The translations under genes were made by a program, and so were the position numbers. From a virus: a DNA stretch of 29,798 bases. The notes beneath the pieces are model-generated. The model did not search any database. It saw only the letters and a list, made by a program, of their open reading frames with translations, and was not told where the DNA came from. The stretch is from IMG/VR virus record IMGVR_UViG_3300013103_000039, positions 1 through 29,798 of that record; one strand, 5' to 3'. Positions within the stretch are counted from its first letter, which is position 1; each line of letters starts with the position of its first letter. Shown piece by piece: positions 3,156-29,798 of the stretch.

Positions 3156-3170
3156 CTTTAAGGAAATAAA

Positions 3171-6638: not shown

Positions 6639-6645
6639 TAATATA
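6628..6645 (+). promoter_or_regulatory. Possible phage promoter: AGTAAAGTTAA then TAATATAG
   Basis: Second copy of the AGTAAAGTTAA motif, directly followed by TAATATAG and then GAGGAA as ribosome site for the gene at 6657. The similarity to 3135-3155 may come partly from duplication of the fibre genes, so this copy is not fully independent support. Confidence 0.3.
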
Positions 6646-6656
6646 GAGGAATAATA

Positions 6657-9600: not shown

Positions 9601-10346
9601 TTACTGATACTTCATATACTCTTCCTGAGTCATTTACGATTGTAACAGAATTTACTCCAACGTTTAACTATGACACATCTACATACAATTATATATATTC
9701 TTTCTATGAAGATTCAAGCCACTATGCAAGACTGAGTTATTCAACAAATGATTACTTTTATTTTAAATATTATAATGGAGCTTCTGTACAAAATGTTGTA
9801 GGCCCGATGACTGGTATTGATTTAAATCAGAAGATTAGAGTATACAATTCAATCAACAGGGCAGCTAAAACAATAACTACCGCTATGTATTTAGAAGAAG
9901 ATGATTTATTTTTTATAGTTACTTATACGTCATCAATAGCTTTTAATGCTAGTTATATTAATAATCTTTATATTGGTGGTAAGGACACAACTACAACCCA
10001 ACCAGCAAATACCAACATCTATGGTTTAAAGGTCTACGACGGAATAACATTTGATGGTAGTTATGATACAATAGAAAAGATAGAAGAATTATTTCCAAAA
10101 GATTCTGTAGGTATTGTTGGAAGAGATACTAATGGTTTTGAAATGACTAAAATAGATGATACCGGAGTTTATTATAGCGACGAAGGTTCTATTTACACAG
10201 GAATTAGATGGATTGAAATTGAATCTGGTGTTGGCGCTTTTGAAACAGATGATTCTATTTATATGATAGATACTACAAGTCAAACTACCACTCTTGATAA
10301 GAGAACAGGGGCTTTTGCGACTAAGGATAAAATATTTTATAAATAA
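6657..10346 (+). CDS. Large fibre protein: shared docking region, propeller-like repeats, LamG-like domain
   Basis: 1229 residues. Residues 1-65 (MSQKNVDFMKKNKYQF, IFNAQMDG, ADMP, VDWSVG) align with the N-termini of the two preceding fibres, so it probably docks at the same site. Residues about 115-745 hold roughly ten degenerate repeats of the form hydrophobic strand (LIIAGETGYIAYW), then aromatic strand (DDSWYA), often with a G-T-G-T-G loop (YDGTGTGTGIF, FFDGTGTGSGLY). This looks like a beta-propeller. Around 980-1130 the pattern FTIVTEFTPTF...IYGLKVYDG resembles a LamG/concanavalin-type jelly roll, a fold often used for sugar binding. The C-terminus (residues about 1150-1229) is unassigned. 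The GAGGAA site supports the start. Probably a receptor-binding or tail-tip protein; no chaperone or cleavage motif was recognised. Confidence 0.75.
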   Translation: MSQKNVDFMKKNKYQFKKQITPPDDYESIRATQEIFNAQMDGTEIFLDADMPIDPFDTTVDWSVGPAPNDEIFRATKNKHIAEEDLGSGVYEPIKDLSGTLPYGLPKDYTFTITYYDIAVFHNKIILAGAAGIVHSFDLFSETLETDGAGISNDGSATGLFDIRKILIKDDLLIFVTVGNKIATYDYSTDTWNAHNSGTPYTNTTNAAFGENITGSSIILDGDTLIVAGIEGVASHDGTAWKNYDGTGTGTGIFLYYNELGLIEGRDEIISIIRYNQFIVCSTVGAAVFNHNGTGWTDYLGGGEADGPFTQGYMPLARMVIYETDLLFIAWDSVISSYDTNGLWKFFDGTGTGSGLYNNTVYSQGNINMAVVYHGDLILFGNQTRDIAYYDGSSWHTPLSNNKYACYTFNNNQYAINHTIYNDSIYIVGYANSVLTMLEEDNGDVSVYQRIGFSDNDNPFLTREMPTTMTSTTSIKVNCGIQFGDYLVFGCDNGEVFYYNTALETWHAYDDAGTGPNSIGVGGALEGKAIYTMQYYSDCLIIAGETGYIAYWNSTDDSWYASNNTQQPGEKDFNGRSLIVGTSNIIAMPIMESIDEICIVSSDGRVGSMSAENGIDYLGATVSGSPTTIYYDNATASYLTLSEVYSAIVMKPRSSEYKEYLVLGSSGQTISCDNANAWQANGAPVIDNPFTNIAGTGFSGTVFGMVQFKGYLIAFSSGGYASCDWNGAWSSYVPAEIQDPVSIWKGSWNGNIHVRFPELVYKTGRKPDYVYEADENSAYLGLAYTNRLGTTRSLDLSTWPLLGVTSTATGEILFGKTTDNDISTLFGQEFYEVVALDAVDTSHVTNFMREPITAVASTNVIFSVIARKGTADESAVRIDNQSVSNTVIGTALIDFTTQSVTSTDSGVLISQEWFDNDTVRIYMHVSGTLSAGHNLNYRLYANYGTGTGVIGASTKYMRPMVTDVSMTHNVPWNYNVQALKIITDTSYTLPESFTIVTEFTPTFNYDTSTYNYIYSFYEDSSHYARLSYSTNDYFYFKYYNGASVQNVVGPMTGIDLNQKIRVYNSINRAAKTITTAMYLEEDDLFFIVTYTSSIAFNASYINNLYIGGKDTTTTQPANTNIYGLKVYDGITFDGSYDTIEKIEELFPKDSVGIVGRDTNGFEMTKIDDTGVYYSDEGSIYTGIRWIEIESGVGAFETDDSIYMIDTTSQTTTLDKRTGAFATKDKIFYK

Positions 10347-12757: not shown

Positions 12758-13018
12758 ATGACATTACAAGAAATGCTAAAAGAACGAAAGGGAATGAGAA
12801 ATAATCCTCAAGAAAAAAGAGATGGAACTGGACCTCACGGAAGAGGTATGGGACCAGGAAAAGGAAAAAAAGATTGTTCTGGTATGCAAGCAGATGGTGC
12901 TACATATAAAGAGTATCTTGGTGCTATGTTAAACAAGTTTGGAAAGAAATCAGTATTAAAGCTTTCTCCTAAAGAGAGAAAAGAGTTAGACGCTGGATGG
13001 AAAGCAAAGGACGAATAA
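12758..13018 (+). CDS. Small basic glycine-rich protein with leader-like N-terminus
   Basis: 86 residues, not recognised. It begins MTLQEMLKER, resembling the short amphipathic N-terminal peptide seen on many proteins of this phage (L-K-E at 7-9). A Gly/Met/Lys-rich stretch follows (GTGPHGRGMGPGKGKKDC), then a helical C-terminus (LSPKERKELDAGWKAKDE). Preceded by AAAGGG. The next gene starts immediately after its stop codon, so the two are co-translated. Could be a minor head component or a nucleic-acid-binding protein. Confidence 0.65.
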   Translation: MTLQEMLKERKGMRNNPQEKRDGTGPHGRGMGPGKGKKDCSGMQADGATYKEYLGAMLNKFGKKSVLKLSPKERKELDAGWKAKDE

Positions 13019-13675
13019 ATGGATTTTTCAGAAATACTAACAGATGAACTATTTGAAGCAACAGGCAAAAATTTATTATTGTTAGATATAGATGATACTT
13101 TATTAACAGCACAAGGAATTAAAATCTGGAGAAAACTTCCAACTGATAAATCAGAAGTTGGATTAACTCCTGCTCAATATGCTGAAGAGCCAGTGTCTCC
13201 GGATACTAAAAAGTATTATGATTATAGAGAATTTAGAGACCCAGTGAAGGTCGGTAAATCAATCACTACAGGTATTCCAATTGTAGGAAATTTACAAACT
13301 ATGGATAGTTATATCAAGAATGGATGGGATATCGGTATCCTTACTGCTCGTGGTATGGAACCCATTATTTTTAAATCTATCAAACAATTCCTTAAATTCA
13401 AGCAAGGCGCAGACCTTAAACCCATTGGAGATAAACTCGTTAGGGATTTGGTATTTGCCATTAATGATGACAACAAGAAATATAAAGGTGGTACTGACTT
13501 CACTAAAAAAACTGAAGTGATGAAGGGACTACTTAAAAAATATGATAGAGTTTGGTTGATTGATGATGACAAGAAGAATTTAGATGCTATCAATAAACTA
13601 AGAGAGGAACTAAAAAGAGTTGGAGATAATAGGCATGGAAAACTCCGGGCTATAATGGCAAGGGGTAAGAAGTAA
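13019..13675 (+). CDS. HAD-superfamily phosphatase-like protein
   Basis: 218 residues. HAD motif I is LLLLDIDDTLL with D23 nucleophile and D25 acid/base; motif II is GILTARG (T109); a lysine near 163-164 can serve as motif III; motif IV is WLIDDDKKN (D182, D183). The full set suggests an active phosphohydrolase; substrate unknown, with a nucleotide or nucleic-acid 3' end possible by analogy with phage phosphatases. The N-terminus MDFSEILTDELFEATGK precedes the catalytic strand and resembles the leader peptide found on neighbours (L-F-E at 11-13). Start abuts the previous stop. Confidence 0.8.
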   Translation: MDFSEILTDELFEATGKNLLLLDIDDTLLTAQGIKIWRKLPTDKSEVGLTPAQYAEEPVSPDTKKYYDYREFRDPVKVGKSITTGIPIVGNLQTMDSYIKNGWDIGILTARGMEPIIFKSIKQFLKFKQGADLKPIGDKLVRDLVFAINDDNKKYKGGTDFTKKTEVMKGLLKKYDRVWLIDDDKKNLDAINKLREELKRVGDNRHGKLRAIMARGKK

Positions 13676-14425
13676 ATGTTAAAACTTTGCTCTGTTTGTA
13701 AAAAAGAAAAAAATATAGAAGATTTCCCAAAAGAAAAAAGATTAAAATCTGGATATTCTTCTAGGTGTAAAGAGTGTAGAGATATTTATTTAAAGAATTA
13801 TAGAAACAATTTAAAAAATAAAGAAAAAGCAAAAGAATATTCCGTTAAATACAGAAAAGAAAACTTTGAAGAGTTATATGAAAAAAAGAAAATTTATCTT
13901 AAAACAGAACTTGGAGAAAAAAGTAGAAAAAAAGCAACCTCTAAATATAATACTTCAATCAAAAGAAAAGAAGGTTCTTTAAAAAAATATAATAACTCTG
14001 ATAAAAGAAGAGAATATGCTAAAGAATGGGTAAAAGAAAAACGCAAAAATGACATTAACTTTAGATTAAAACAATCAATAAGTTCTAATTTAAACTCACA
14101 ACTTAAAAAAGTTTTTCTTAAAAAAAATGGAAAACAAACAATAAAATATTTAGATTATAATATTGAATTAGTTGCATCTCATTTAGAGAAAATGTTTGAT
14201 GAAAAAATGTCGTGGAATAATTATGGAAGTTATTGGAATATTGATCATATTATTCCACAAGTTTTATATAATTATAAAGATAATAATGAAATAAAAAAAT
14301 GTTGGGATTTAAGAAATTTAAGACCTTTAAAAAAAGAAGATAATTTTTCTAAAAAAGATTTTTTATTTTTAAACCTTATAGAAAAATATAATATAGATGA
14401 TTTACTTCCAGTAGGAGAGATATAA
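13676..14425 (+). CDS. Free-standing HNH homing endonuclease
   Basis: 249 residues. An N-terminal zinc ribbon (C5-x2-C8, C31-x2-C34) is followed by a very lysine-rich helical middle and a C-terminal HNH domain: WNIDHIIPQ (D190, H191), WDLRNLRPL (N214) and DNFSKK (N223). Such proteins cut DNA at gene-sized target sites and spread their own gene. The coding sequence is clearly more A-rich than the genes beside it. It is inserted with no spacer: the ATG follows the HAD stop directly and its stop shares one base with the next start. That suggests precise insertion between two originally adjacent genes. Confidence 0.9.
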   Translation: MLKLCSVCKKEKNIEDFPKEKRLKSGYSSRCKECRDIYLKNYRNNLKNKEKAKEYSVKYRKENFEELYEKKKIYLKTELGEKSRKKATSKYNTSIKRKEGSLKKYNNSDKRREYAKEWVKEKRKNDINFRLKQSISSNLNSQLKKVFLKKNGKQTIKYLDYNIELVASHLEKMFDEKMSWNNYGSYWNIDHIIPQVLYNYKDNNEIKKCWDLRNLRPLKKEDNFSKKDFLFLNLIEKYNIDDLLPVGEI

Positions 14426-15645
14426 TGAAAATTAATGATTTAGTCGAAATGGCTATTCCTGTAGCACAGGGTGAGAAAGTTTGGAAAGAAATTAATGATC
14501 TCCTAAACCAAGATAAATATAAAGAAGCTGCACAAAAATTCATTGATGCTGGTGGTAATCCTCGTGGCGCAAAACGAACTTGGAATGTAGCACAAGCTAA
14601 TACAAAAATTGCAGGTGGAAAAGTTCCTGGCCCTATCTATGGAATAATTGACGCAAAACACGATTATGATAAATTCCTCGCAGCAATGCCAGGAGATGCA
14701 TCTGCTCCTAAGAAAAATAAAGTCAAACAAAAAGATCAAGACCCAGATACCAGAGCAGAAGAACAGGCACTTTCTTACAAGACGATGGCTGACAAAAGAA
14801 AAGTTCAATCTCTTCAAGTTAAAGATGGAACTGCAGCTGGTTCTGATCTCGCAAGAAAAATGAGTAAGAAAGGAGATAATGATCCTGCGAAAACTCTTGA
14901 AGCCGACTCTAAAAGATTTGGTGATGTCGCTAAAGGTATTACAGAAATTAAGAGATTAGAAGCAAAAGACGCAGATCCAGATCAAACAATGACACCAGCA
15001 GATAGAAAGAAACTTGCTACACTTAAAAGAGAAACTCTTGAATATAGAAGTAAAACAGCACTTCCCGATGAAGCCAAAGCAGAGTTTGCAAAAGCTGAAA
15101 CTTCTAAACAACTTGAAACAGCTCTTAAAAAGTATATTAAGAAAAAAGTAAGAGTTGATGATAGAGAAACTGTTGTTATGCTTCTTAATAAAATAAGAAA
15201 AGTTTCTGCTAAAGCAAAAGCTGTTGAATTACATTTGTTATTAAAACAAGTCTTTAGAAACAAAAATAATCAAAAATCAATTGATGATTTAATTGCAAAG
15301 TATGAAAAGAATGTAAATATTGGAATAGCTCATCTTAAAGGTGTTGATAAAGTATTAGATAAATACAATGCAGGAAAAGATATTTCCAGTAAAGAACTTG
15401 AAGGTCTTTATAAAGAAGTAGTTAAGATGCTTCCTGATATGAGCCAGAATAAGAAATATGATCTTAAAGGATTTAGCACCTATAGTGCTACCGCTAAGAA
15501 ACTAAGTGATTTTATCGATAAGAAAGTAGAACCAACCGCAGATGACTTAGAAGAGTTATTAGATGGATTGGCTAATTATCATAACAATTTAAAACCAAAA
15601 AGAAAGAAAAACATAAAAGAGGATATTTTATTCAACCTTATTTAA
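14425..15645 (+). CDS. Large charged helical protein of unknown function
   Basis: 406 residues, rich in Lys, Ala, Asp and Glu and almost entirely helical in appearance; no family recognised. It begins MKINDLVEMAI, resembling the leader peptide of neighbouring genes (L-V-E at 6-8). An N-terminal globular part (about 15-90, KEAAQKFIDAGGNPRGAKRTW) is followed by a low-complexity linker (PKKNKVKQKDQDPDTRAEE) and a long helical C-terminal half. Composition is compatible with a head core or internal protein, but this is inference. It overlaps the HNH stop by one base (TAATG). Confidence 0.7.
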   Translation: MKINDLVEMAIPVAQGEKVWKEINDLLNQDKYKEAAQKFIDAGGNPRGAKRTWNVAQANTKIAGGKVPGPIYGIIDAKHDYDKFLAAMPGDASAPKKNKVKQKDQDPDTRAEEQALSYKTMADKRKVQSLQVKDGTAAGSDLARKMSKKGDNDPAKTLEADSKRFGDVAKGITEIKRLEAKDADPDQTMTPADRKKLATLKRETLEYRSKTALPDEAKAEFAKAETSKQLETALKKYIKKKVRVDDRETVVMLLNKIRKVSAKAKAVELHLLLKQVFRNKNNQKSIDDLIAKYEKNVNIGIAHLKGVDKVLDKYNAGKDISSKELEGLYKEVVKMLPDMSQNKKYDLKGFSTYSATAKKLSDFIDKKVEPTADDLEELLDGLANYHNNLKPKRKKNIKEDILFNLI

Positions 15646-15674
15646 TTGACAATAAAAGAATAAAGTTGTATACT
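15646..15674 (+). promoter_or_regulatory. Strong sigma70-type promoter upstream of Ro60-like gene
   Basis: TTGACA at 15646-15651, 17-base spacer, TATACT at 15669-15674. An AGGAG ribosome site at 15681 and a TTG start at 15692 follow. The -35 box and first part of the spacer (TTGACAATAAAAGAATAA, 18 bases) are identical to the minus-strand promoter at 22768-22796, so both probably belong to one class read by host RNA polymerase early in infection. Confidence 0.85.
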
Positions 15675-15691
15675 TTAGACAGGAGCATCAT

Positions 15692-17155
15692 TTGTCTGAA
15701 CCACAAGTTATTAGAAAAGTAGTTGTTAAAAGAAAGATAGGAAACAACAGAGAAAAAGTCGGGATTACATATGAAGAATTGAACCAGTTAAAGCAATGGG
15801 TTTTAACTGGTTCTTTCACTAATGAGCTTTGTTCAGATCAAAATAAGATTGATTTCAGCAAACTATATTTACTTCGACGAGCTGTATTTTCAGAGCCTCG
15901 ACAACTTAATAAAATTTTATTAGATTACTCGCTTATTACAACTAAAAAAGATACGCTCTTTTTAGTTCTAATCTTTTTGTCTTCTGGCAATTTTCAAGCA
16001 AAGAAATGTTTTAAAGAAAGTTTTAATAAAATAATTAAAACACCTAATGATCTCTATAAATTCTTTTCTCTATTAAAGAGATATAGAGGGATGGGAAGTA
16101 TCATTCACGTCGCAGTTAAAAACTGGTTCAACTCCACTGATATTAGATTACTCGAAAGAATGTTCGTTCTTGAAAGATCTAAATATAGTTGGTCTGCTCA
16201 GGACGTAGTAAGATTAATTAAATTAAAACCTACAGATAAAAAAGAAGGACTTCTTCTTAGATGGTTGGCTATAGATGGTATAGATTTTAATGATCAACAA
16301 GACTATTTAAATTATCTTCCTTTGGTTCATGCTTATGAAACTATGAGACATCGAAAAAATGATATATCAATCCAAGAGATGATGTCAAAACTACAATTTG
16401 ATTATAAAGCTATCCCAAGCAATGTAAGTAGGACTAAGAGTTTGACTAAGAAAATCCTTGAAACTAAAAACATAACCCAGCAACTACATTTTTTAAAAAA
16501 ACGTTATCGCGACGGAGAAGCTATCTCTGCTGTCTCAAAAGGACTTGACGAACTCAGAAAAAATCAAGGCACTTTATCGATGGATGTTATAGATCAACTC
16601 TCAATTTATGAGGAAATGATTAATAACAGAATATCCACTAAGATACTTGATGATATGTTATACTTCATTGAATTGAAACTTAAAGAAATGAACCGCGAAA
16701 ATGTTATTAGTATTGTTGATATGAATACTAATATGTATAATAAGAAAAATAGTTTCTTTGGTATAACCCCTGCAGTAATTGCATCCGCATTGTCAAGTAG
16801 CCATGAACGCGTTTTTACATTTTCTGGTAGAGAAAAGCTCAATACTACTGATAGAGAGATACTTGAAGCAGAAGGAACTCTTGAAACAATTAAACATATT
16901 AATATAGATAAAATAGGAAAAGAAATCAAAGAACATCCAAAAAACATTATCATTTGGACTAACAGAGAATACCTTAAAGATTTAGAGAAAGATGTAAAAA
17001 TTCTTAGTATGATTTATAAGAAAAGTAATGTTTGTCTTATGAATATGAGAAACGCTAAACTAAAAAATAGAGATCCTAATTACTATGTGATTAATGGTTT
17101 CGACAAAAACACAAAAAAGCTAATTAAGTTAGTTGAAAAAGGGATGGGAGTATGA
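15692..17155 (+). CDS. TROVE/Ro60-like RNA-binding protein with vWA-like domain
   Basis: 487 residues from a TTG start, set by AGGAG six bases upstream and the lack of a nearer ATG. The N-terminal two thirds look like the TROVE helical-repeat ring of Ro60/Rsr: YLLRRAVFSEPRQLNKILLDYS, then KRYRGMGSIIHVAVKNWF and KYSWSAQDVVRLIKLKP (about 129-180), which match the 'GxGxxxxxAxxxWY' and 'WSxxDxxRL' regions of Ro60. Residues about 335-485 look like a vWA domain, but the metal site D-x-S-x-S is D343-M-N345-T-N347. Ro60 proteins bind Y RNAs and misfolded RNAs and act with nucleases in RNA quality control. No Y RNA gene is visible nearby. Its stop overlaps the next gene by four bases. Assignment is from remembered motifs. 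Confidence 0.7.
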   Translation: MSEPQVIRKVVVKRKIGNNREKVGITYEELNQLKQWVLTGSFTNELCSDQNKIDFSKLYLLRRAVFSEPRQLNKILLDYSLITTKKDTLFLVLIFLSSGNFQAKKCFKESFNKIIKTPNDLYKFFSLLKRYRGMGSIIHVAVKNWFNSTDIRLLERMFVLERSKYSWSAQDVVRLIKLKPTDKKEGLLLRWLAIDGIDFNDQQDYLNYLPLVHAYETMRHRKNDISIQEMMSKLQFDYKAIPSNVSRTKSLTKKILETKNITQQLHFLKKRYRDGEAISAVSKGLDELRKNQGTLSMDVIDQLSIYEEMINNRISTKILDDMLYFIELKLKEMNRENVISIVDMNTNMYNKKNSFFGITPAVIASALSSSHERVFTFSGREKLNTTDREILEAEGTLETIKHINIDKIGKEIKEHPKNIIIWTNREYLKDLEKDVKILSMIYKKSNVCLMNMRNAKLKNRDPNYYVINGFDKNTKKLIKLVEKGMGV

Positions 17156-17490
17156 GCAGAGAGGAGTACTTAAACCAGTCGAAAATCAAAAGAGACAGAA
17201 CAACAGCAGATGATGTTCGTGATGTCTTTAATGGGATGGCAGATTTAATTGATGTTAAAAATAAAAGATATGGCGATAGTGTCATGCAACCCCTTGGAGT
17301 ATTCAGTAGCCATGTTTATCATGAGAATACTGAAAGTCTCAATGGGGTGTTAATTAGACTTGATGATAAACTAAAACGAATTAAAAACTCAAAAGAGTTG
17401 AGAAAGAATGATGTTTCAGACCTTATAGGATATCTTGGATTTCTATGCGTAGAAAAAGGCTGGACTAGTTTTGAAGACCTCATAGACTAA
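17152..17490 (+). CDS. Nmad1/DUF1599-like protein
   Basis: 112 residues. KNKRYGDSVMQP, then LIRLDDKLKRIKN and NDVSDLIGYLGFLC, match the small helical phage family called nucleotide-modification-associated domain 1 (DUF1599). It is found with modified-base pathways in phages, but its biochemical role is not known to me. No base-modifying enzyme is visible in this window. It overlaps the Ro60-like gene by four bases (ATGA), so translation is probably coupled. Confidence 0.65.
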   Translation: MSREEYLNQSKIKRDRTTADDVRDVFNGMADLIDVKNKRYGDSVMQPLGVFSSHVYHENTESLNGVLIRLDDKLKRIKNSKELRKNDVSDLIGYLGFLCVEKGWTSFEDLID

Positions 17491-17530
17491 TAGATTGTTT
17501 GCTTCATATATATTATATTAAGGAGCAAAT

Positions 17531-17743
17531 ATGTTCAAGCAAAGTAAAGATAATAAAAATAGCTACAAGTTTAAGGCTGGGAACAAAACGATTGAGGTCG
17601 TCTTTTTTGAAGATGATAATAGTTCCGAGCTGTATGACGAAAGTGATCCTGGGAACACAGGTTTTATTTTTAGTGATAAGAAGCAACTCATAAGTTTTGT
17701 TAATGGCCTAACCGATGTAGTAGAAAGTCGTTTAGGAGAATAG
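17531..17743 (+). CDS. Small acidic protein, unknown
   Basis: 70 residues, start supported by AAGGAG upstream. Predicted small alpha/beta fold (YKFKAGNKTIEVVFFED, then FIFSDKKQLISFVNGL). No motif recognised. It sits in the same transcription direction as the Ro60-like and late sigma genes, two bases before the next gene. Confidence 0.6.
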   Translation: MFKQSKDNKNSYKFKAGNKTIEVVFFEDDNSSELYDESDPGNTGFIFSDKKQLISFVNGLTDVVESRLGE

Positions 17744-17745
17744 TT

Positions 17746-18450
17746 ATGAGTACATTAAAGAATATAGTTGATGAAGTAATTTTAGAAGCAAAGGCAGAAA
17801 GTCTAAAACTCTTTTATGACGTAGATGTTTTCGTTCAAGAATTTAAAGATGAAGAACCAGAACCAGAAGCTGAGCCAACAATTGAACCAGCAGCAGGAAC
17901 CACAGTTCCAACAGAACCAGTTCCTGTAGCCACAACCCCACCAGACAATACACTTCCACCACCAGCAGAAAGTTTTGACGATGAAGGTAATTTACTTACC
18001 GAAGCAATAATTAAAGCAAAAGCAAAAGGTGAGTTAATAGTTCCAAAAGAAGCTGCGTTGAACATTCAAACAGTTCAGGACTTAGTGGATTATCTTGGAG
18101 ACCAATCACACTCAGAACAATCAACAGTGCAGAAAATCCTTAATAAGAAAGGAAACATCAAAGGAAAGAAAATCATTTCACCAGAAGTCCAAGAGATCAT
18201 CTTGATCCTTGCGGGTGTTGGTGGTGAGAAAGAACTTGGAGATATTGTAGATAAAGGTGATAAGGTTATAGTCGATATTGATTATGGTATAGAAAAACAG
18301 AATAGTATCGGATTTAAAGTAAATAAAAACGCAGGAACTGATGTGTTTAGCATTATGATGAAGAAAGATGGCAAAATATTGCCAGGTAAGTTTGACCAAG
18401 CGTTGTTAAATAAACAAATTCTTTATTTTAGAAATACACTAGAAGACTAA
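17746..18450 (+). CDS. Unknown protein with leader-like N-terminus and Pro/Glu-rich linker
   Basis: 234 residues. The N-terminus MSTLKNIVDEVILEAKAE resembles the leader peptide of neighbouring proteins (I-L-E at 12-14). Residues about 34-76 are a Pro/Glu/Thr-rich flexible linker. Residue 83 onward (LLTEAIIKAKAKGELIVP) again looks leader-like and opens a globular C-terminal domain (about 95-234) of unknown family, ending with alternating strands (KVIVDIDYGIEKQNSIGFKV). Possibly a head or internal protein; no homologue recognised. Short spacing to both neighbours suggests co-transcription. Confidence 0.65.
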   Translation: MSTLKNIVDEVILEAKAESLKLFYDVDVFVQEFKDEEPEPEAEPTIEPAAGTTVPTEPVPVATTPPDNTLPPPAESFDDEGNLLTEAIIKAKAKGELIVPKEAALNIQTVQDLVDYLGDQSHSEQSTVQKILNKKGNIKGKKIISPEVQEIILILAGVGGEKELGDIVDKGDKVIVDIDYGIEKQNSIGFKVNKNAGTDVFSIMMKKDGKILPGKFDQALLNKQILYFRNTLED

Positions 18451-18453
18451 TGT

Positions 18454-19146
18454 ATGCCGACAACTAAAAAAAAGAAACCTAAATCAAATAATTATTTCGA
18501 CGAAGTAAAAGTTACCACATGGATAGTAGAATATCAGCGCTCAGCGATTAGAGAAATCAACAGCGAGGGAGTAGAAACTGTCGTTTGGAAAGATAAAGTC
18601 ATAGAAGAAAAGATTATGTCTGAGGTTATAAAGATCGTCAAGGCAATCATTCAAGTCTATCGATATTATATCTTTGAAGATTATGATGATTGCTTACAAC
18701 ATGGTTCTATGTCTTGTTATCAAAATTTTATGAAGTGGCACAAAGAAAAAGGAACAGCTTTCAATTTCTTTTCAATCATCTCAAAAAGAAGTTTGTTGAA
18801 TTATACAGATAGAAGAAAAAAACATAGAAACCATAATGATATTGCAGAACATGTAGATCTTTATGACAGCAAAACAATGAACTTTGATTTTTACCTTGAA
18901 GAGTTTCGCGATAACTTAATTGAAATTGTCAATAATAACTTTGTTGGAAAAAAAAGAAAAGGCTTCATTGAAATTTCATTAATACTTATAGACTACTTGT
19001 TTAAAACAAAAAAGTTTGTAAGTAAAACTGATTTTTATTCTTGGGCACGTTCTTATGGAAAAAGAAGTATTGACATAAGAGAGTTTATGAAAGCCATGAG
19101 AGAGCATGGAGCTGAACTCTTTGGAGATGCTGAAGCTGAGGATTAA
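18454..19146 (+). CDS. T4 gp55-like late sigma factor
   Basis: 230 residues. The segment at about 58-125 (IKIVKAIIQVYRYYIFEDYDDCLQHG, GTAFNFFSIISKRSLLNYTDRRKK) has the pattern of sigma70 region 2: an acidic helix, a small loop, then an aromatic 'F-F-S-I-I' helix and a basic tail. There is no region 4. That is the layout of T4 gp55, which binds host core polymerase and reads a -10-only late promoter. The acidic C-terminus (AELFGDAEAED) could interact with a sliding clamp, as gp55 does, but the clamp motif is not certain. Lying downstream of a host-type promoter suits a factor that must be made before late genes. Ribosome site is weak. Confidence 0.65.
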   Translation: MPTTKKKKPKSNNYFDEVKVTTWIVEYQRSAIREINSEGVETVVWKDKVIEEKIMSEVIKIVKAIIQVYRYYIFEDYDDCLQHGSMSCYQNFMKWHKEKGTAFNFFSIISKRSLLNYTDRRKKHRNHNDIAEHVDLYDSKTMNFDFYLEEFRDNLIEIVNNNFVGKKRKGFIEISLILIDYLFKTKKFVSKTDFYSWARSYGKRSIDIREFMKAMREHGAELFGDAEAED

Positions 19147-19148
19147 CT

Positions 19149-19850
19149 ATGAGAATTGAAAATTTGATAGAAGGCATTGGAGAAAGGAAACTTTATCATT
19201 ATACTAATTTTTATGCTTTAAAAGATATTTTAGCGTCGAAACAATTGAAAGGTTTTAAGTATAAGATAAGAGGCGATGAAGGCTATCAAATAGCTACTGT
19301 TCGTCCAAGTATGGCAAATAAAAAGAATATAGGACAATTATCAAAAGGAACCGATGAACAAGAAGTTAGAATAATTATTAATGCTTCTAAGTTAAGTGAT
19401 AATATCCGTGGAACTAAAATTAGATCAATTGCAGAATACCCAAAAGAAGATACAGAGAAGTTCAAAAAACTATTGGGTAGTAGAAGTAAAGAAGTAAATT
19501 CTTTTATAAAAGAAATAAACGCTTACGCTAAAAAATATCCAGAATATAAAAACAGAAATACTCCTAAAGGCCTTAGAGATATAGAAAAAATCTTAAAGAG
19601 ATATGGAGTTGATAAAAAAGAAAAAGAAGAAGCTTTAAGATTTCAGTTGGGACTTTCTCATTACTCTGTTAATAGAGAAGGCGAAGAAAGAATTAATATT
19701 AAAAAAGACCATATACCTTTAAGCCCTAATTTTATTAAAATAGAATTACTAAAGAAACCAGCTGGTGCTTGGGTAAGAAAAATGGTAATGGATAATAGAC
19801 ATTACTTTGTTAAAAATAAAGTATTAGAAGATTTGTTAAAGGAAGAATAG
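19149..19850 (+). CDS. ADP-ribosyltransferase-like protein, paralogue 1, leader-bearing
   Basis: 233 residues. After a leader-like N-terminus (MRIENLIEGIGE) comes KLYHYTNFYALKDILASKQLKG, the H-Y-T plus 'L..IL....L' opening seen in DarT-like and related ART folds (H17). Then TVRP (R52) and, after a helical insert at about 95-170, REGEERI at 176-182 holding a candidate catalytic glutamate, and the strand NFIKIELLKKP. Two tandem paralogues follow. The expected reaction would be transfer of ADP-ribose from NAD to a host target, by analogy with T4 Alt, which is also a head-packaged ART. Family membership is from motif order only and is not certain. Confidence 0.55.
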   Translation: MRIENLIEGIGERKLYHYTNFYALKDILASKQLKGFKYKIRGDEGYQIATVRPSMANKKNIGQLSKGTDEQEVRIIINASKLSDNIRGTKIRSIAEYPKEDTEKFKKLLGSRSKEVNSFIKEINAYAKKYPEYKNRNTPKGLRDIEKILKRYGVDKKEKEEALRFQLGLSHYSVNREGEERINIKKDHIPLSPNFIKIELLKKPAGAWVRKMVMDNRHYFVKNKVLEDLLKEE

Positions 19851-19851
19851 T

Positions 19852-20616
19852 ATGAACTTGAAAGAAGCAATCGGTGAAAGGGAACTTCATCATTATACAG
19901 ATTATAATTCCTTAGAAAGTATTTTAGATGATGGATTTCTTAAACTTGATTATTATGAAGGAACTAAGGATGGAGAAAGCCAACTTTCCTTAGTTCGCCC
20001 AGGAATGGTAAATAAAGAAAATTTAAAAAATTTATCTTCCGGAGCTACAGGTGGAGTTAAATTCATTATTGATGCTTCAAAGATGAGTGATACTGTTCGT
20101 GGTGCAAAAATTAAAACAATTGCAGAGCTTCCTATTATGTTCAAAAGACAGATAAAGAGTATGATGAATTATGGTAGGGGAAAAGATGTAGATAAGATGC
20201 TTAAAGAGATGGAGACTTTATCAAAAAAATATCCAAAGCTAACTACTACCCTACTTCCTTCTGGAACCACAAACGAAGAAATGAAAAAATACTTAGGGGA
20301 TAAAACTTCTGCTGAGTTAAATAAATTTATGTATAAATGGGATATGGACAAGTATCCCACTACTTTCCTAAATGCTTACAGAAGATATAGAAAAAACTCA
20401 AGAGAGAGAGAAGGCGAAGAAAGACTTACATTAAAAAGTAAGAATAGGCTTCACGCAAGACTTCCTTTAAGCACAAAGTTTATGAAAATCGAACTGACAA
20501 AACCTTATCAAGCAGATAAGTTCTATAAAGAAATGTTAGCAAAAAAAATAAGAAAGAATAAAAACTTATTTGTTATGAATGATATCTATAAAGATATAGT
20601 AAAGAAGAAGGATTAA
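19852..20616 (+). CDS. ADP-ribosyltransferase-like protein, paralogue 2, leader-bearing
   Basis: 254 residues. MNLKEAIGE then R-E-L-H-H-Y-T (H14-Y15-T16), SLVRPGMVNKENLKNLSSG (R49), GVKFIIDASKMSD, a longer helical insert (about 95-180), and REGEERL at 186-192, followed by KFMKIELTKP. Same order and spacing logic as paralogue 1, with the whole core conserved, so the fold should be the same. One base separates it from the previous stop. The insert differs most between copies and may set the target. Confidence 0.55.
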   Translation: MNLKEAIGERELHHYTDYNSLESILDDGFLKLDYYEGTKDGESQLSLVRPGMVNKENLKNLSSGATGGVKFIIDASKMSDTVRGAKIKTIAELPIMFKRQIKSMMNYGRGKDVDKMLKEMETLSKKYPKLTTTLLPSGTTNEEMKKYLGDKTSAELNKFMYKWDMDKYPTTFLNAYRRYRKNSREREGEERLTLKSKNRLHARLPLSTKFMKIELTKPYQADKFYKEMLAKKIRKNKNLFVMNDIYKDIVKKKD

Positions 20617-20619
20617 ACT

Positions 20620-21597
20620 ATGAACTTAGAAGAAGCAATTATATATGACTATATCGGAGAAGGAACACTACTTCATTTTACAAACCCAAAACAACTTATA
20701 TCAGCCCTTAAAAAAGGAAAGATTTATGTAGGTAGAGATGGACTGAAAACTATAAGACCATCAGCTGCAACTAAAGACAATATTAGCGATCTTCATGGAG
20801 AACGAGATAGACCTGGCTCTTATCAAACAAAAGACGTAAAAGATTTTGGTTGGGATAAATTTCATGGTAAGTTTAACGCAAGAGAAGAACAACAGATTTA
20901 TGATAGTGGAAAAGATTTTGTTAAAATAGTCATTGATGGTTCAAAGCTAAAAGGCGGAGAAGCAAGAGGGCTTAAAATTGAAAAGAAAAATGAAGACAAT
21001 AAAACACTCTTCAATAAAGTAAAACACTTTATTGGTTCATATAGAGATGATGACGCTGAAATGTTTATAAAAGAAGTATCTCCTTTTATCAATAAACTAC
21101 ATACAAGTAAAGGTGGAAAGAAAGCAAGTTTAGATGAACTCTATAATTCTATCCCAGAAAAACTTCAGAAAAGTTTAATCAAAAAATATGGTGGAATAAA
21201 CCATAGAGGAAATGTAATGTCTGCTCTTCAAGCTGCTTATAATTATAGAGGAGTTTCAAGAGAAAGAAAAGGAACTGAAGTAATTAACTACAAAAAGAAA
21301 AGTAAGTTTTCTTCTATTCCTTTAAATCGTAAGTATATGAAGATTGAATTCCTGAAAAAACCTACAATGAAAGGAATGGGGCTTATAGAATTAGCAAAAC
21401 AAATAAAAGACAATAAGAAACTTTTTAAGAATAATGCAATTTTAGAAAAAATCATTAAAGACGCTGATGCTATGGAAAGAGGCGAAAAGCCAAAAAGAGA
21501 AAAAACTCCTATCAAACCAAAGAAGAAAACTGTAAAAGAAAAAAGTGCATATCACGATGACGATAAAAATGACAAAAAAGGATTTAGAACATTTTAA
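20620..21597 (+). CDS. ADP-ribosyltransferase-like protein, paralogue 3, diverged
   Basis: 325 residues. MNLEEAIIYDYIGE, then GTLLHFT (H19-F20-T21), KTIRPSAATKDNISDLHGE (R46) and VKIVIDGSKL, a long insert, and at 216-222 R-K-G-T-E-V-I in place of REGEER-I/L. Only the second glutamate (E220) is kept, which points to it as the functional one, or to a weakened enzyme. A basic extension of about 50 residues (PKREKTPIKPKKKTVKEK) follows the core and is absent from paralogues 1 and 2; it may bind nucleic acid. Its stop shares one base with the next start. Confidence 0.5.
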   Translation: MNLEEAIIYDYIGEGTLLHFTNPKQLISALKKGKIYVGRDGLKTIRPSAATKDNISDLHGERDRPGSYQTKDVKDFGWDKFHGKFNAREEQQIYDSGKDFVKIVIDGSKLKGGEARGLKIEKKNEDNKTLFNKVKHFIGSYRDDDAEMFIKEVSPFINKLHTSKGGKKASLDELYNSIPEKLQKSLIKKYGGINHRGNVMSALQAAYNYRGVSRERKGTEVINYKKKSKFSSIPLNRKYMKIEFLKKPTMKGMGLIELAKQIKDNKKLFKNNAILEKIIKDADAMERGEKPKREKTPIKPKKKTVKEKSAYHDDDKNDKKGFRTF

Positions 21598-21782
21598 TGG
21601 AAGACGCAGTAAGAAGGTATTATGACACTAAAGTTAAATGCCCTATATGTAATAGGAAAGTTGTAGAAACCTTTTTATCACCACCTCAGTATGTCCCAGG
21701 TAGGGAATATTCTGATAGGGTGAATGTTGTTCTTTGTAATGAATGTGGATGGCGGGGAAAAGTAGATGAACTTAGAAGATGA
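21597..21782 (+). CDS. Small zinc ribbon protein
   Basis: 61 residues with two knuckles, C15-P-I-C18 and C47-N-E-C50, the second followed by GWRGKVDELRR. A two-strand linker (YSDRVNVVLC) separates them, as in transcription-factor-like or rubredoxin-type ribbons. No enzymatic domain. It overlaps the preceding gene by one base (TAATG) and the following one by 17 bases, so all three are translationally linked. Confidence 0.75.
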   Translation: MEDAVRRYYDTKVKCPICNRKVVETFLSPPQYVPGREYSDRVNVVLCNECGWRGKVDELRR

Positions 21783-22224
21783 TAAAATAGACATTGATGC
21801 AATTATGGCTGAACTTGAAAGTGATACAACTGAAATAGAACCTATTGCCAATGTAGTTGCGGAAATTGAAAAAGAAGCAGCAGAAGTTCCTGTAGTAAAA
21901 GATGAAGATGCAATAGATTTAGAGGTAGAGGGAGAACTCTCACAAAGAATTGTGAAGAACTCTTTGAATGTAATCAACGCAGCAAAAAGTGTTTATACTT
22001 CATTTTCCGATGATGTATTTAAGGGAAATGATCGGAGCACTTCCTCTAAGGAAGCAATGCTTAGGGCCTTAGATGTTCAGAATAGTGCCAATAAAAATAT
22101 GATTGACTTAGCTAAAGTGTTAGCCAATAAAGACAAGAACGGAACTAACATATTAATCAATACAATTTCAGAAAAAAAGGCTGGAGTTAATTTTTCTAAT
22201 ATGAAGGATAGTTTTAATAACTAA
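21766..22224 (+). CDS. Unknown acidic protein; small terminase subunit candidate
   Basis: 152 residues: an acidic N-terminal tail (MNLEDDKIDIDAIMAELESD and onward to about 60), a helical core (SQRIVKNSLNVINAAKSVYTSF, then LRALDVQNSANKNMIDLAKVLA) and a short tail. Size, acidic tail and central helical pair recall T4 gp16-type small terminases, and it lies in the block leading to TerL. However, six genes separate it from TerL and no DNA-binding motif is evident, so the call is weak. It overlaps the zinc ribbon gene at its start and the minus-strand SLOG gene by 11 bases at its end. Confidence 0.45.
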   Translation: MNLEDDKIDIDAIMAELESDTTEIEPIANVVAEIEKEAAEVPVVKDEDAIDLEVEGELSQRIVKNSLNVINAAKSVYTSFSDDVFKGNDRSTSSKEAMLRALDVQNSANKNMIDLAKVLANKDKNGTNILINTISEKKAGVNFSNMKDSFNN

Positions 22225-22558
22225 TAACTAAACTCATTATACCTTTTTCTTTTGCTAAATCAATAGTGTGTTTCGTGCCTTTCGACACTCCATCCCAAAA
22301 AGCTATTAGATAATCTGCTTGAGCAATTATTTCTGCGTTTCTTATTCTTCCAGCTGACTTACCTAAATTCTTCCAATCTGCTGGATATTCTTTAAAAGAA
22401 ATAAAGTTTTCATTCGCAAATTGTTTTGCTAAACTATCAGCACCCTTAGCTCCACCTGATATAATACAATCACCTTCAGGAGCTACTGAAGAAAATAACA
22501 CTTCTTCTAACTTATCATAGTCGTTAAAGTCTCGACCACCAACTATAGCTATATTCAT
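22214..22558 (-). CDS. SLOG-family (DUF2493/YspA-like) nucleotide-binding protein
   Basis: 114 residues from the ATG at 22558. This start is chosen over an upstream in-frame one at 22591 because it overlaps the previous gene's stop as ATGA and begins directly at the first strand. MNIAIVGGRDF, CIISGGAKGADSLA, KSAGRIRNAEII and GVSKGTKHTIDLA are the DUF2493/SLOG signatures of a Rossmann-like fold that binds nucleotides or related ligands. SLOG proteins occur in nucleotide signalling and phage-host conflict systems; the ligand here is unknown. Second gene of a two-gene minus-strand operon inside a plus-strand region. Confidence 0.85.
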   Translation of the reverse strand: MNIAIVGGRDFNDYDKLEEVLFSSVAPEGDCIISGGAKGADSLAKQFANENFISFKEYPADWKNLGKSAGRIRNAEIIAQADYLIAFWDGVSKGTKHTIDLAKEKGIMSLVISY

Positions 22559-22749
22559 CGTGCTTCTTCTTTTTCTCTTTCGTCCAACCATTCAGAATAT
22601 GAAAGAAGCTTTTCATCATTACAATTGCAAGGTTTATATCCTATCATGAGTTCTTCAAATATAACTCTTGCACATTCCCTTCCAGTCATTCGCTCTAATC
22701 TCTCGGTTTTTATACTATCCCAGAAATCATCAAAGTTTTTATAAATCAT
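22555..22749 (-). CDS. Small unknown protein upstream of SLOG gene
   Basis: 64 residues (MIYKNFDDFWDSIKTERLER, then a C-x-C pair at YKPCNCND and an acidic/basic tail). No family recognised. A GGGAG ribosome site and a consensus promoter lie just upstream. Its stop overlaps the SLOG gene start by four bases, so the pair is co-translated and may work together. Confidence 0.65.
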   Translation of the reverse strand: MIYKNFDDFWDSIKTERLERMTGRECARVIFEELMIGYKPCNCNDEKLLSYSEWLDEREKEEAR

Positions 22750-22767
22750 ATTTTTTCTCCCTAATTA

Positions 22768-22796
22768 ATTATACCAAATTATTCTTTTATTGTCAA
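22768..22796 (-). promoter_or_regulatory. Consensus sigma70-type promoter for the SLOG operon
   Basis: Read on the minus strand: TTGACA (22796-22791), 17-base spacer, TATAAT (22773-22768), both boxes perfect. The first 18 bases, TTGACAATAAAAGAATAA, are identical to the plus-strand promoter at 15646. It would make this operon strongly expressed by unmodified host polymerase. Confidence 0.9.
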
Positions 22797-22805
22797 GAAA
22801 GAGAA

Positions 22806-22824
22806 AGTAAAGTTAATATATATA
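22806..22824 (+). promoter_or_regulatory. Possible phage promoter: AGTAAAGTTAA then TATATATA
   Basis: AGTAAAGTTAA at 22806-22816 directly followed by TATATATA, ten bases before the ATG at 22834. The same 11-mer precedes two fibre genes at 3135 and 6628, and this gene is not related to them, so the match is not due to gene duplication. The short distance to the start is a problem for a promoter, because transcription would begin at or after the ribosome site. Confidence 0.35.
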
Positions 22825-22833
22825 GGTGAGATT

Positions 22834-23220
22834 ATGACAATAAAAGAAATACTAACAGAAACATTTGTTGATTACTACAAATTCTACAATAAACAATTCC
22901 CTGTTTATAAAAATCCTACATCGAACGAGATAAGAGATTTAGTCAAAGAAACAAAATCTAAAGGTCTTAGATGGCTGGTCGATATTAAAACGAAAGATGT
23001 ATATGTTTTTTCTGACAAAATAATGCATTATATAGCTTGGTCAAAAATGAACAATATTAATGATCCCAAAGTTTTTAATAAAGTGAGTATAAGAGGACAT
23101 GCTGATAATAGAGGTAAAATAAAAAAAGGTGATGGAGAGGATTGGAATAAGAGAATGCCAAAAGGTATTACAGAAAAAGAAGTTCTTAAAATTGCTAAAA
23201 AAGGAAATATTACTCTATGA
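22834..23220 (+). CDS. 'NPT' family protein 1, leader-bearing, unknown function
   Basis: 128 residues. Leader-like MTIKEILTETFVDYYK, then the family core: FPVYKNPTSNEIRDLVKET, LRWLVDIKTKDVYVFSDKIMHY and a glycine-containing end (RGHADNRGKI). The core repeats in the two following genes. Its alternating strands (WLVD, DVYVF) suggest a small alpha/beta fold. No catalytic motif is recognised; a conserved His follows the second strand (H65). The first 34 bases are identical to those of the next gene although the rest has diverged. The stop overlaps the next start (ATGA). Confidence 0.75.
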   Translation: MTIKEILTETFVDYYKFYNKQFPVYKNPTSNEIRDLVKETKSKGLRWLVDIKTKDVYVFSDKIMHYIAWSKMNNINDPKVFNKVSIRGHADNRGKIKKGDGEDWNKRMPKGITEKEVLKIAKKGNITL

Positions 23221-23588
23221 CAATAAAAGAAATACTAACAGAAACATTTGAGGACTACGCTAAAGCTCCATACTCTAAGAAGGTTTATGGTATCTATAAA
23301 AACCCTACGAGTAATGAGCTTAGAGATTTAATCAAAGAAGAAAAACCAATAAGCTTTAGAGTGCTCATAGATAAAAAGAAGAAAGATATTTATGTCTTTA
23401 ATAGCGATTTATTACATGCTGAAGCCGCTAAGAAAATATTTGGTTTTACATCAGTAGGAAAACGAGATAGATTTCATCATGGTATTGCCAATAAAGCAGG
23501 CACTCTCAGAAAAAGAACTTTCTTAAATGATGCTGATATTAAAGAAGTTGCAGATTGGCTAAAGCCACCAATGAAGATGGAAAGCTAA
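23217..23588 (+). CDS. 'NPT' family protein 2, leader-bearing, unknown function
   Basis: 123 residues. Leader MTIKEILTETFEDYAK, identical in its first 11 residues to protein 1, then YGIYKNPTSNELRDLIKEE, FRVLIDKKKKDIYVFNSDLLH (H67), and HHGIANKAGTL. Paralogue of the genes on both sides. Expression is coupled to the previous gene by a four-base overlap. Function unknown; the leader suggests it may be a head-internal protein. Confidence 0.75.
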   Translation: MTIKEILTETFEDYAKAPYSKKVYGIYKNPTSNELRDLIKEEKPISFRVLIDKKKKDIYVFNSDLLHAEAAKKIFGFTSVGKRDRFHHGIANKAGTLRKRTFLNDADIKEVADWLKPPMKMES

Positions 23589-23589
23589 A

Positions 23590-24531
23590 ATGAATTTTAT
23601 AAATATATTAGACAGCTTATATGAAGAGTTTGCTGAGTATGGCAAAAGTAGTAATGATAAAGGCAAAGGTTCTTATGCTATCTATAGCGACCCTACTAAA
23701 AGAGAAATGGGACAAATAATCAAAGAAGAAAAACCAATTGGGTTTAGACTTCTTGCTGATAAAAACTCTAAAAAGGTTTATCTCTTCAATGCTAATATGT
23801 TTCATAACGAAGCAATTGTTGCATTAACAGGAAAATCAGATCAAGGCTCAAGTAGATGGGTTCGGGGATATGCTAACTTATATGGTGAAATTGAAGAGTT
23901 TTATCCAGTAGGAGAAGTATTGAACATAATTGACTGGGCAGATAAAAGTCAAGCTCTTACATGGCCTAATAAAACAGAAGATAAAAAAGATTATCTTGAA
24001 GTTAAAAAAAAGAAAGACGATGAACAGAAAAGATTAAATAAAGAACTTAAACCAAGTTTAGAAAAATCCCTTAAAAGACTTGAAGATAAAAAGAAGAAAC
24101 AAAAAGAAGAAGATAAGAAAGCTATGGGTGAAAGCACATTAGGTTCTATATTAGAAAGCTTTGTTGATTTTGGTAAGAATAGTTCTTATGGTTCTCATAA
24201 GAAAACAGATTATGGCATATATAAAAATCCAACAAGTAAAGAATATAGAGATTTAATGAAAGAAACTGATTTCAAGGGATTTAGAATACTTGTTGATAGA
24301 AAGAAAAAAGATTATTATTTATTCAGCTCAGAACTATTACATGACGATGCTGAATTAGCAGTATATAAAAAGAATTATACTACTGAAAGAGGTGGTAATT
24401 ACTTTAAAGGGTTTGCTAAAAGAAATGGAGAAATAATGTTCTTTCGTTTAATGGACCCAAAGATTGAAAGAGAAGTAAGGCCATGGATAACAAAAGGCCC
24501 ATTGACTTGGCCTATAGAAGAAGGTAGATAA
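23590..24531 (+). CDS. 'NPT' family protein 3: tandem two-module fusion with internal leader copy
   Basis: 313 residues with two copies of the family module. Module 1: leader MNFINILDSLYEEFAEYGK, core IYSDPTKREMGQIIKEE, GFRLLADKNSKKVYLF, H72, ending ALTWP (122-126). A lysine-rich coiled linker follows at about 130-178. Module 2 opens with STLGSILESFVDFGK (182-196), which matches the N-terminal leader of the single-module proteins, then IYKNPTSKEYRDLMKET, GFRILVDRKKKDYYLF and PLTWP (304-308). The internal leader shows that a complete gene was fused downstream of another. Its stop overlaps the alarmone hydrolase start by one base. Confidence 0.75.
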   Translation: MNFINILDSLYEEFAEYGKSSNDKGKGSYAIYSDPTKREMGQIIKEEKPIGFRLLADKNSKKVYLFNANMFHNEAIVALTGKSDQGSSRWVRGYANLYGEIEEFYPVGEVLNIIDWADKSQALTWPNKTEDKKDYLEVKKKKDDEQKRLNKELKPSLEKSLKRLEDKKKKQKEEDKKAMGESTLGSILESFVDFGKNSSYGSHKKTDYGIYKNPTSKEYRDLMKETDFKGFRILVDRKKKDYYLFSSELLHDDAELAVYKKNYTTERGGNYFKGFAKRNGEIMFFRLMDPKIEREVRPWITKGPLTWPIEEGR

Positions 24532-25097
24532 TGAAACTCGTAGATGCAATTAAAGCAACACATGGAGAACTTGGAATAAAGAAAGCAATGAAGTTTGCTG
24601 AAAAGAAACATGAAGGACAAATAAGAAAGTTTGATAAAGAACCTTATGTTAAACATCCAAAAAGAGTTGCTGAAATCCTAAGAAAATATAAAAACTCAAA
24701 AGAAGTTTATAAGCTTGTCCAAGCAGCTTTACTACATGACACAATCGAAGATACTCCAACCTCCGCTAAGGAGTTAAAGAGAAAGTTCGGTAAGTTGGTT
24801 GCCTCTTTAGTTCAAGAACTTTCAAGTGATAAGAAAGACATGGTAGAGAAAGGTGGTAAAAGAAAATACTTAGCTCACAAAACTCAAAACATGTCATCTT
24901 GGGGTTTGGTTATTAAACTCGCTGATAGACTAGATAATGTTTCTGACTTCAAAACCGCATCTCCCGCTTTTGTTAAGAGTTATGGAAAACAAACTAATTA
25001 TATCTTAGACGAACTTGAAAAAAATAGAAAACTATCTGGAACTCAAAAACGATTGATTGCAGATATTAGAAAGAAGATGGCTGAAGTTTCCAAATAA
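24531..25097 (+). CDS. Small alarmone hydrolase (MESH1/SpoT-type HD domain)
   Basis: 188 residues, a stand-alone HD hydrolase of the RelA/SpoT type. It would remove the 3' pyrophosphate from (p)ppGpp. Visible residues in family order: FAEKKHEGQIRK (H27, R32), YVKHPKRVAEIL (H42), AALLHDTIEDT (H69-D70, E73-D74) and KLADRLDNVSD (D132, N136). These correspond to the Mn ligands and catalytic pair of SpoT/MESH1 hydrolases, so it should be active. There is no synthetase or TGS domain. The N-terminus MKLVDAIKATHGELG resembles the neighbours' leader but lacks a clean I/L-x-E. Likely counters the host stringent response, possibly from the start of infection. Confidence 0.85.
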   Translation: MKLVDAIKATHGELGIKKAMKFAEKKHEGQIRKFDKEPYVKHPKRVAEILRKYKNSKEVYKLVQAALLHDTIEDTPTSAKELKRKFGKLVASLVQELSSDKKDMVEKGGKRKYLAHKTQNMSSWGLVIKLADRLDNVSDFKTASPAFVKSYGKQTNYILDELEKNRKLSGTQKRLIADIRKKMAEVSK

Positions 25098-28983: not shown

Positions 28984-29798
28984 ATGCCACTAATAGATGG
29001 AGTTGAAGTATTCAACGACGAAAAATCAGCAAGAGAAATACAGAGACAAGTCAATGCGATTTCTGATCTACCTCAAGATTTAAAGACAGATGTTGATACA
29101 AAAGATATTAATCTTAGTGATGATAATGACAATGTAGATTATAGTATTTTCTTTGATGAGAATGAATTTGGTGAAGGAAATACATTAAATAACAGAAGAG
29201 ATGCTTATGATACTTTCAATGAAATGGATACAATGGAATTCATTCATAGAGGTATTGAAATCATTTCAGATGATGCAACACAGCCTAATGATTCCGGTGA
29301 TGTAATGAAGTTTGTTTCAGACGATGAAACACTTAAAGATGTTCTTGATCAATTGTTTATTAAAAAGTTAGATATGAACAATGAGTTGTGGTCTATCTTT
29401 TATGAGACAGTTAAGATGGGTGATAACTTCTATGAAGTTATTCCAGATGATTATAAAAAACCAAAAGAGATTCGTCGTATCAGATACTTAGAACCTGACA
29501 AAGTTGATAGAATTGAAAAGAACGGAAAACTTTCTCATTTTACTTATAAAGTAACTCGTAATGATAAAGCCAATGATGGTAGTAGAAACGCAGTAAAAGA
29601 AACTATGGAATATAAATTATTTCCTTGGCAGATAATTCATTTCAAAATTGAGAATAAAGTCCATGCACCTTATGGTGGTTCATTACTTGAAGCTGGTGTA
29701 AGAACTTATAGACGACTTGTAATGCTAGAAGATTTAATGCTTGTTTATAGAATAAGTAGAGCACCAGAAAGAAGAGTATTCTATATTGATGTTGGTAA
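28984..29798 (+). CDS. Portal vertex protein, T4 gp20-type (5' part, truncated by window end)
   Basis: 271 codons are present before the window ends. The portal is the dodecameric ring at one head vertex through which DNA is packaged and on which the tail assembles. The late part of the fragment reads FPWQIIHFKIENK, then PYGGSLLEAGVRTYRRLVML and LVYRISRAPERRVFYIDVG, the strongly conserved signature of T4-like portal proteins. An acidic N-terminal region (DDNDNVDYSIFFDENEFGEG) precedes it. AGGAG ribosome site eight bases upstream. In T4 the prohead protease gene lies soon after gene 20, so it may lie just beyond this window. Confidence 0.93.
   Translation, partial: MPLIDGVEVFNDEKSAREIQRQVNAISDLPQDLKTDVDTKDINLSDDNDNVDYSIFFDENEFGEGNTLNNRRDAYDTFNEMDTMEFIHRGIEIISDDATQPNDSGDVMKFVSDDETLKDVLDQLFIKKLDMNNELWSIFYETVKMGDNFYEVIPDDYKKPKEIRRIRYLEPDKVDRIEKNGKLSHFTYKVTRNDKANDGSRNAVKETMEYKLFPWQIIHFKIENKVHAPYGGSLLEAGVRTYRRLVMLEDLMLVYRISRAPERRVFYIDVG

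Follow-up and report, generated by a model that had tools for sequence, protein, structure and literature searches.

The virus fragment IMGVR_UViG_3300013103_000039 of the IMG/VR database (29,798 bases, analysed over its full length and called the window here) comes from a phage of the T4 superfamily, ends inside a portal gene, and encodes eleven proteins that open with a similar short N-terminal leader. This leader is real and occurs far beyond chance. We consider it highly likely that it is a T4-type capsid-targeting (head-targeting) propeptide, as a sequence-only reading of the window had proposed. That proposal is supported by an excess of the leader pattern, a prohead protease and a conserved capsid cleavage site in relatives, and further by a conserved cleavage triplet, leaders that lie outside the predicted folds, the basic character of the proteins, and leader-free homologs of the one HD-domain member. 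Very probably, then, one removable tag is carried by at least six kinds of protein for loading into the head, trimming and injection; injection together with the DNA, argued by analogy with T4, is less certain than head-targeting.

The window's portal protein shares ~23–34% identity with gp20-type portals of T4-superfamily phages, and closer relatives are encoded on 24 viral contigs. We searched the records of six relatives (G001, 201 kb; G002, 208 kb; G003; G004; G005; G006). The window DNA gave no megablast match to known phages, and a tblastn search of 50,697 phage records left the families of 13019, 14425, 17746, 19852 and 23217 unmatched (proteins are named by their first position in the window).

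A leader shared by seven families

Gene calls came from a simple script, which makes the start codons predictions; on these calls, the start codons and N-termini of all eleven proteins match their earlier description. An I/L-x-E triplet lies within residues 6–14 in ten of the eleven, and 24531 lacks it, again as first described. By contrast, the eleven are not unrelated, as had been thought: similarity sorts them into seven families (12758; 13019; 14425; 17746; 19149/19852/20620; 22834/23217/23590; 24531), because the two sets of three are paralogous, and six of the seven families, all except 24531, have the triplet. The leader takes the form M-x1-2-[hydrophobic]-x-x-[hydrophobic]-[hydrophobic]-x-E, is 8–14 residues long with the protease triplet at its end, and has no net positive charge. 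Its hydrophobic residues and Glu are spaced as in T4 IPIII, mostly one residue closer to the start. Of the T4 precedents first invoked, the targeting sequence MKTYQEFIAE belongs to IPII and IPIII but not to Alt, which starts MELITELFDE.

To ask how often such N-termini arise by chance, we used two patterns: a strict one derived from T4 proteins alone (IPII/IPIII MKTYQEFIAE, Alt MELITELFDE and gp24 MAKINELLRE, with a start shift of one residue permitted), and a relaxed one, combined with the triplet, modelled on the description in the sequence-only reading. As a control, each protein's own residues 2–20 were permuted in 1000 shuffles. The strict pattern was found in 5 of 30 window proteins against 0.32 expected (shuffle maximum 3), and the relaxed pattern with triplet in 11 of 30 against 0.27 expected (shuffle maximum 3). 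Among 421 proteins of AT-rich bacterial contigs there were two strict and four relaxed matches (Fisher 1.8e-5 and 1.8e-11). The pattern is thus not equally frequent elsewhere, and the worry that Glu-rich composition produces it is ruled out by shuffles that preserve the composition of each N-terminus. Relaxed matches are concentrated at 12.7–25.1 kb (10 of 17 proteins, compared with 1 of 13 in the rest of the window); the lone match outside, 28101 (MLEVQEILVDE), shows no conservation in relatives and is probably due to chance. Strict matches are also in excess in G001 (10; 1.6 expected) and G004 (5; 0.5 expected).

Could the shared N-terminus reflect gene duplication and a Glu/Leu-rich composition, with no targeting role? 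Six of the eleven proteins do fall into two paralogous groups, the window does hold one non-conserved chance match (28101), and 27% of N-termini in the clade contain I/L-x-E by chance. Nevertheless, we regard this explanation as very improbable: shuffles give 0.27–0.32 matches where 11 and 5 were observed, the triplet is kept across homologs of differing leader length, and the pattern recurs in six mutually dissimilar families. Counted per family, the relaxed pattern is found in 6 of ~24 (binomial p ~9e-8) and the T4-derived strict pattern in 4 of 24 (p ~1e-4), the latter being the fairer figure, since the claim itself shaped the relaxed pattern. Paralogy alone accounts for six of the eleven proteins, not for seven families.

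The patterns also recover head proteins of T4. Applied to the T4 proteome, the strict pattern selects 7 of 229 proteins (gp61.1, IPII, IPIII, gp2, gp24, Alt and RNase H), and a matrix trained on the window leaders ranks gp67 first, gp24 second, Alt 12th and IPII/IPIII 21st–22nd of 229; as a classifier of single proteins, this matrix proved too weak. T4 gp61.1 (NC_000866, 18966-19130) itself starts MKTFKEFIKE, close to the IPIII targeting sequence, and from this resemblance may be packaged in the T4 head.

The leader proteins share one further property: pI (isoelectric point) exceeds 9 in ten of the eleven, compared with a pI above 8.5 in 5 of the 19 other window proteins (p = 8.5e-4). With relatives pooled the trend gives p = 0.005–0.008, and it is not seen in G002, G005 or G006 singly.

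Protease, cleavage site and leader boundaries

Maturation of a T4-type head calls on the protease gp21, which cleaves after L/I-x-E (PMC9026906); mutational work on T4 IPIII assigns targeting to residues 4 and 7 and processing to residues 8 and 10 (PMC9026906). A gp21-type prohead protease (Peptidase_S77), sought because its lack would have spoken against capsid targeting, is encoded in the records of all six relatives (in G004 at 25832-26446 of the record, in L062), and its similarity to T4 gp21 includes the GELxHP segment. In an alignment, the site FLTE65/A of T4 gp23 (the slash marks the cut) lines up with a conserved I/L-x-E, then A-P, in the relatives' major capsid proteins. Because these proteins conserve I/L-x-E/A at the gp23 cleavage position, the I/L-x-E specificity of the protease is, on this alignment, retained in the clade. 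As a separate observation, the S77 proteases of G003 (from 6721 of the record), L005 (from 5684) and L023 (from 6991) have an intein-like insert right after GELxHP, the segment that contains the presumed catalytic His.

The triplet itself is conserved. With its E at residues 8–20, it is present in 19 of 19 homologs from outside the window in six families, versus 27% of the relatives' other proteins, and it stays in place while leader length varies among homologs. In the 14425 family, L-x-E/MA is invariant in four homologs behind a leader of 5 to 10 residues; in homologs of 13019, LFE, LNE or LKE stands ahead of the HAD domain with a variable spacer; and leader and triplet are both preserved in the 12758 homologs of G004 and G001. 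A leader-bearing homolog of 23217 is also found in L077, between TerL and the portal gene.

Predicted structures of two of the proteins place the leader outside the fold, with the fold starting just past the predicted cut. In the AlphaFold model of 19852 (predicted local distance difference test, pLDDT, 79), residues 1–8 score below 50 and the first strand begins at residue 11; in that of 23217 (pLDDT 76), residues 1–8 again score below 50 and the fold begins at residue 11.

Short N-terminal peptides with hydrophobic patterning are used by several sorting systems, a general precedent for a destination other than the head, for example a membrane (with the leader as a binding helix) or a phage nucleus. 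We find such a signal scarcely credible here: the leaders have no net positive charge, measure 8–14 residues and end in a protease triplet, their pattern recovers T4 head proteins, and portal, protease and capsid genes in the clade are of the T4 type.

Several observations weigh against capsid targeting. The window ends in the portal gene, so that the S77 protease gene itself lies outside it, and we found no virion proteomics in the literature for the source phage or any relative. Common descent of the relatives means that the homolog triplet test is not fully independent. T4 IPI ranks merely 76th of 229 by the window-leader matrix. When families were scored with their own members left out, the leaders of 14425, 20620 and 24531 were not outstanding, and the signal is therefore weak for any single protein. 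Finally, 24531 has no triplet, and so half the signal only, and 17746 is acidic and conserved as broadly as a structural gene.

The last point bears on the idea that the leader proteins are mostly prohead-core or structural proteins, cut up and discarded or kept in the head, and not injected effectors. Protein 17746, found in six of six relatives, has a variable acidic linker and, beside it and ahead of the C-terminal domain, a second conserved site, LLTE86/A; possibly it belongs to the prohead core and not to the cargo. An N-terminus of similar kind is found in the T4 core proteins gp67 and gp22, and in relatives the protein encoded between portal and protease also starts in leader-like fashion (MDMNEALLED). 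However, basic character is common to the other ten window proteins, several of them have the fold of an enzyme (HAD, HD, ADP-ribosyltransferase-like), and most families are patchy among relatives, like accessory cargo. A mainly structural role is thus unlikely for the set.

Candidate cargo and neighbouring genes

If the leaders are capsid-targeting propeptides, we infer docking, cleavage, packaging, injection and enzyme targets by the T4 scheme. During assembly, the leader would bring each protein to a docking site on the prohead core; once the shell has closed, the gp21-type protease would cut behind I/L-x-E and free a mature, mostly basic protein within the head; and this protein would enter the host along with the DNA. 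Among the cargo would be small basic proteins, three ADP-ribosyltransferase (ART)-like enzymes in the role that Alt has in T4, and an enzyme resembling polynucleotide phosphatases; a (p)ppGpp hydrolase, targeted yet left untrimmed, may also belong to it.

Table 1. Leader-bearing proteins of the window and its portal gene.
Feature	Coordinates	Strand	Leader	Remarks
86-aa basic protein	12758..13018	+	MTLQEMLKE	predicted cut after E9; strict pattern match; pI 9.8
HAD-type phosphatase (polynucleotide kinase (PNK) 3'-phosphatase-like)	13019..13675	+	MDFSEILTDELFE	PHROG 415 polynucleotide kinase 3e-6
406-aa basic protein	14425..15645	+	MKINDLVE	predicted cut before MAIP
Acidic member	17746..18450	+	MSTLKNIVDEVILE	conserved in six relatives
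ART-like paralog 1 (probable)	19149..19850	+	MRIENLIEGIGE	
ART-like paralog 2 (probable)	19852..20616	+	MNLKEAIGE	body starts RELHHYT
ART-like paralog 3 (probable)	20620..21597	+	MNLEEAIIYDYIGE	
Small basic protein, 'IYKNPTS' copy 1	22834..23220	+	MTIKEILTE	
Small basic protein, 'IYKNPTS' copy 2	23217..23588	+	MTIKEILTE	
Tandem fusion of two 'IYKNPTS' units	23590..24531	+	MNFINILDSLYEE (N-terminal)	internal leader TLGSILE
HD-domain (p)ppGpp-hydrolase-like protein	24531..25097	+	MKLVDAIKATHGE	no triplet
gp20-type portal	28984..29796	+		truncated by window end; S77 protease gene downstream of it in relatives

Proteins 19149, 19852 and 20620 are probably ADP-ribosyltransferase-like, as judged from sequence comparisons and the model of 19852. 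Sequence hints for this 'HYT' family are Tox-ART-HYD1, under its cut-off in 4 of 8 members, and DarT1 (0.07); the best PDB matches of the model, to Tpt1 (E 0.23) and to DarT (E 0.26), are both weak, and a comparison with predicted viral structures gave one match (7e-5). The ART-like homologs in L073 start just ahead of the HYT motif, with no triplet and no clear leader. Few new loci were added when viral contigs were scanned with the alignments of four families.

In 13019, the predicted cut after E13 falls immediately on the N-terminal side of the LLLLDIDDT motif. A 13019-type HAD domain also occurs behind a leader in a 1013-aa multi-domain protein of G002 (179562-182603), which resembles a polyvalent effector. 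Within the 'IYKNPTS' family, for which a PDB search with the model returned no credible fold, the second half of 23590 opens with its own leader, TLGSILE, and a cut is predicted after E189. DHH-domain-like proteins of G001 (150165-151805, MKNFMSILNES...) and L073 (1520-3613, ...LLLNESG) also have N-terminal LNE triplets; on these N-termini they are candidates for further cargo.

The HD protein 24531 is a SpoT-type HD protein by its domain matches (Pfam HD_4 4e-17, 62.7 bits versus a curated cut-off of 27.2; spoT_relA 5e-24). Matches to it occur in 211 phage records; of the 25 listed, 21 have alignments that begin at residue 16 or beyond. In two annotated phages the homologous gene begins three codons ahead of the residue-16 point, and alignments to bacterial homologs also start mostly from residue 16. 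Gain of the tag is thereby hinted at, the HD protein having a leader in this clade and none in other phages and bacteria; among the remaining families, a leader-free outgroup was found for the ART-like one alone. Protein 24531 either is targeted and escapes cleavage or does not belong to the set.

Several neighbours of these genes deserve mention. TerL (25123-28101) contains an in-frame insert of ~357 residues (25453-26523) that starts with C-L-T, ends with V-H-N/S and is absent in the aligned regions of the G001, G005 and G006 homologs; from these features it is an intein. Between two leader genes, 13676-14425 encodes a protein that resembles HNH endonucleases and has no leader; it may be a homing endonuclease of the free-standing type. 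The product of 15692-17155 (TTG start) is Ro60/Rsr-like (NCBIfam RNA-bind_Rsr 1.8e-8, far under cut-off) and has homologs in three relatives. Three consecutive large proteins at 41-10346 have a common N-terminal segment (MAQGNVEFTKK...), which is also found in relatives, and differing bodies, two repeat-rich and one unlike them; they have the look of adhesins in tandem that share one virion anchor. A Padloc run returned nothing useful.

Relation to known head-targeting systems

One of the closest parallels is with T4 IPII/IPIII: in both, a short N-terminal peptide with matching hydrophobic spacing and a terminal I/L-x-E precedes basic proteins, and the clade has an S77 protease. The window leaders differ in that they usually have one residue fewer ahead of the first hydrophobic position and sit on enzymes too; the mature parts are dissimilar, and packaging here is predicted. 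Alt, an injected ADP-ribosyltransferase, shares the leader form on what are probably ART-fold proteins, whereas the window has three small tandem paralogs of another ART branch (HYT; weakly Tpt1/DarT-like) with no homology to Alt. T4 gp24 and gp67/gp22 also have leader-like N-termini on gp21-processed proteins, but their roles are structural, and 17746 alone is comparable in the window. To our knowledge, targets have been established for just a few of the internal proteins of T4 (Type IV restriction enzymes, RNA polymerase).

Further afield, the head and ejection proteins of phiKZ and SPN3US likewise combine a propeptide, a gp21-related head protease and injected cargo, although in phiKZ the motif is S/A-x-E and propeptides are mostly far longer (PMC5694885, PMC9026906). 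In P1, an N-terminal peptide sends DarB into the head for injection, yet the Dar proteins are reported to have no common consensus (PMC9024508). Polyvalent proteins (PMC5512222) are proposed multi-domain phage effectors (compare the leader-plus-HAD protein G002_179562, 1013 aa); they are multi-domain by definition, and the window proteins are mostly single-domain. According to work cited in PMC12373910, internal-protein genes of T-even phages have already been found via this signal, and the principle is therefore known. What we describe extends the known targeting system of T4 to new cargo; within the literature searched, we found no precedent for the clade, its cargo or the tandem fusion.

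A bolder version of this idea is possible but on balance doubtful: that one tag acts as a plug-in address label on many enzyme families in a clade of uncultured T4-superfamily phages. Among its carriers would be the ART-like proteins encoded in tandem, an alarmone hydrolase that reaches the host uncut, and a polyprotein of two units, 23590, from which the head protease, by way of the internal tag, would release two proteins for injection. If the capsid-targeting reading is true, the proteins injected at the first moment of infection would be readable from sequence in uncultured phages, through the tag and the S77 protease. Such proteins, ADP-ribosyltransferase-like and alarmone-hydrolase-like enzymes among them, would be candidates for early host takeover or counter-defence.

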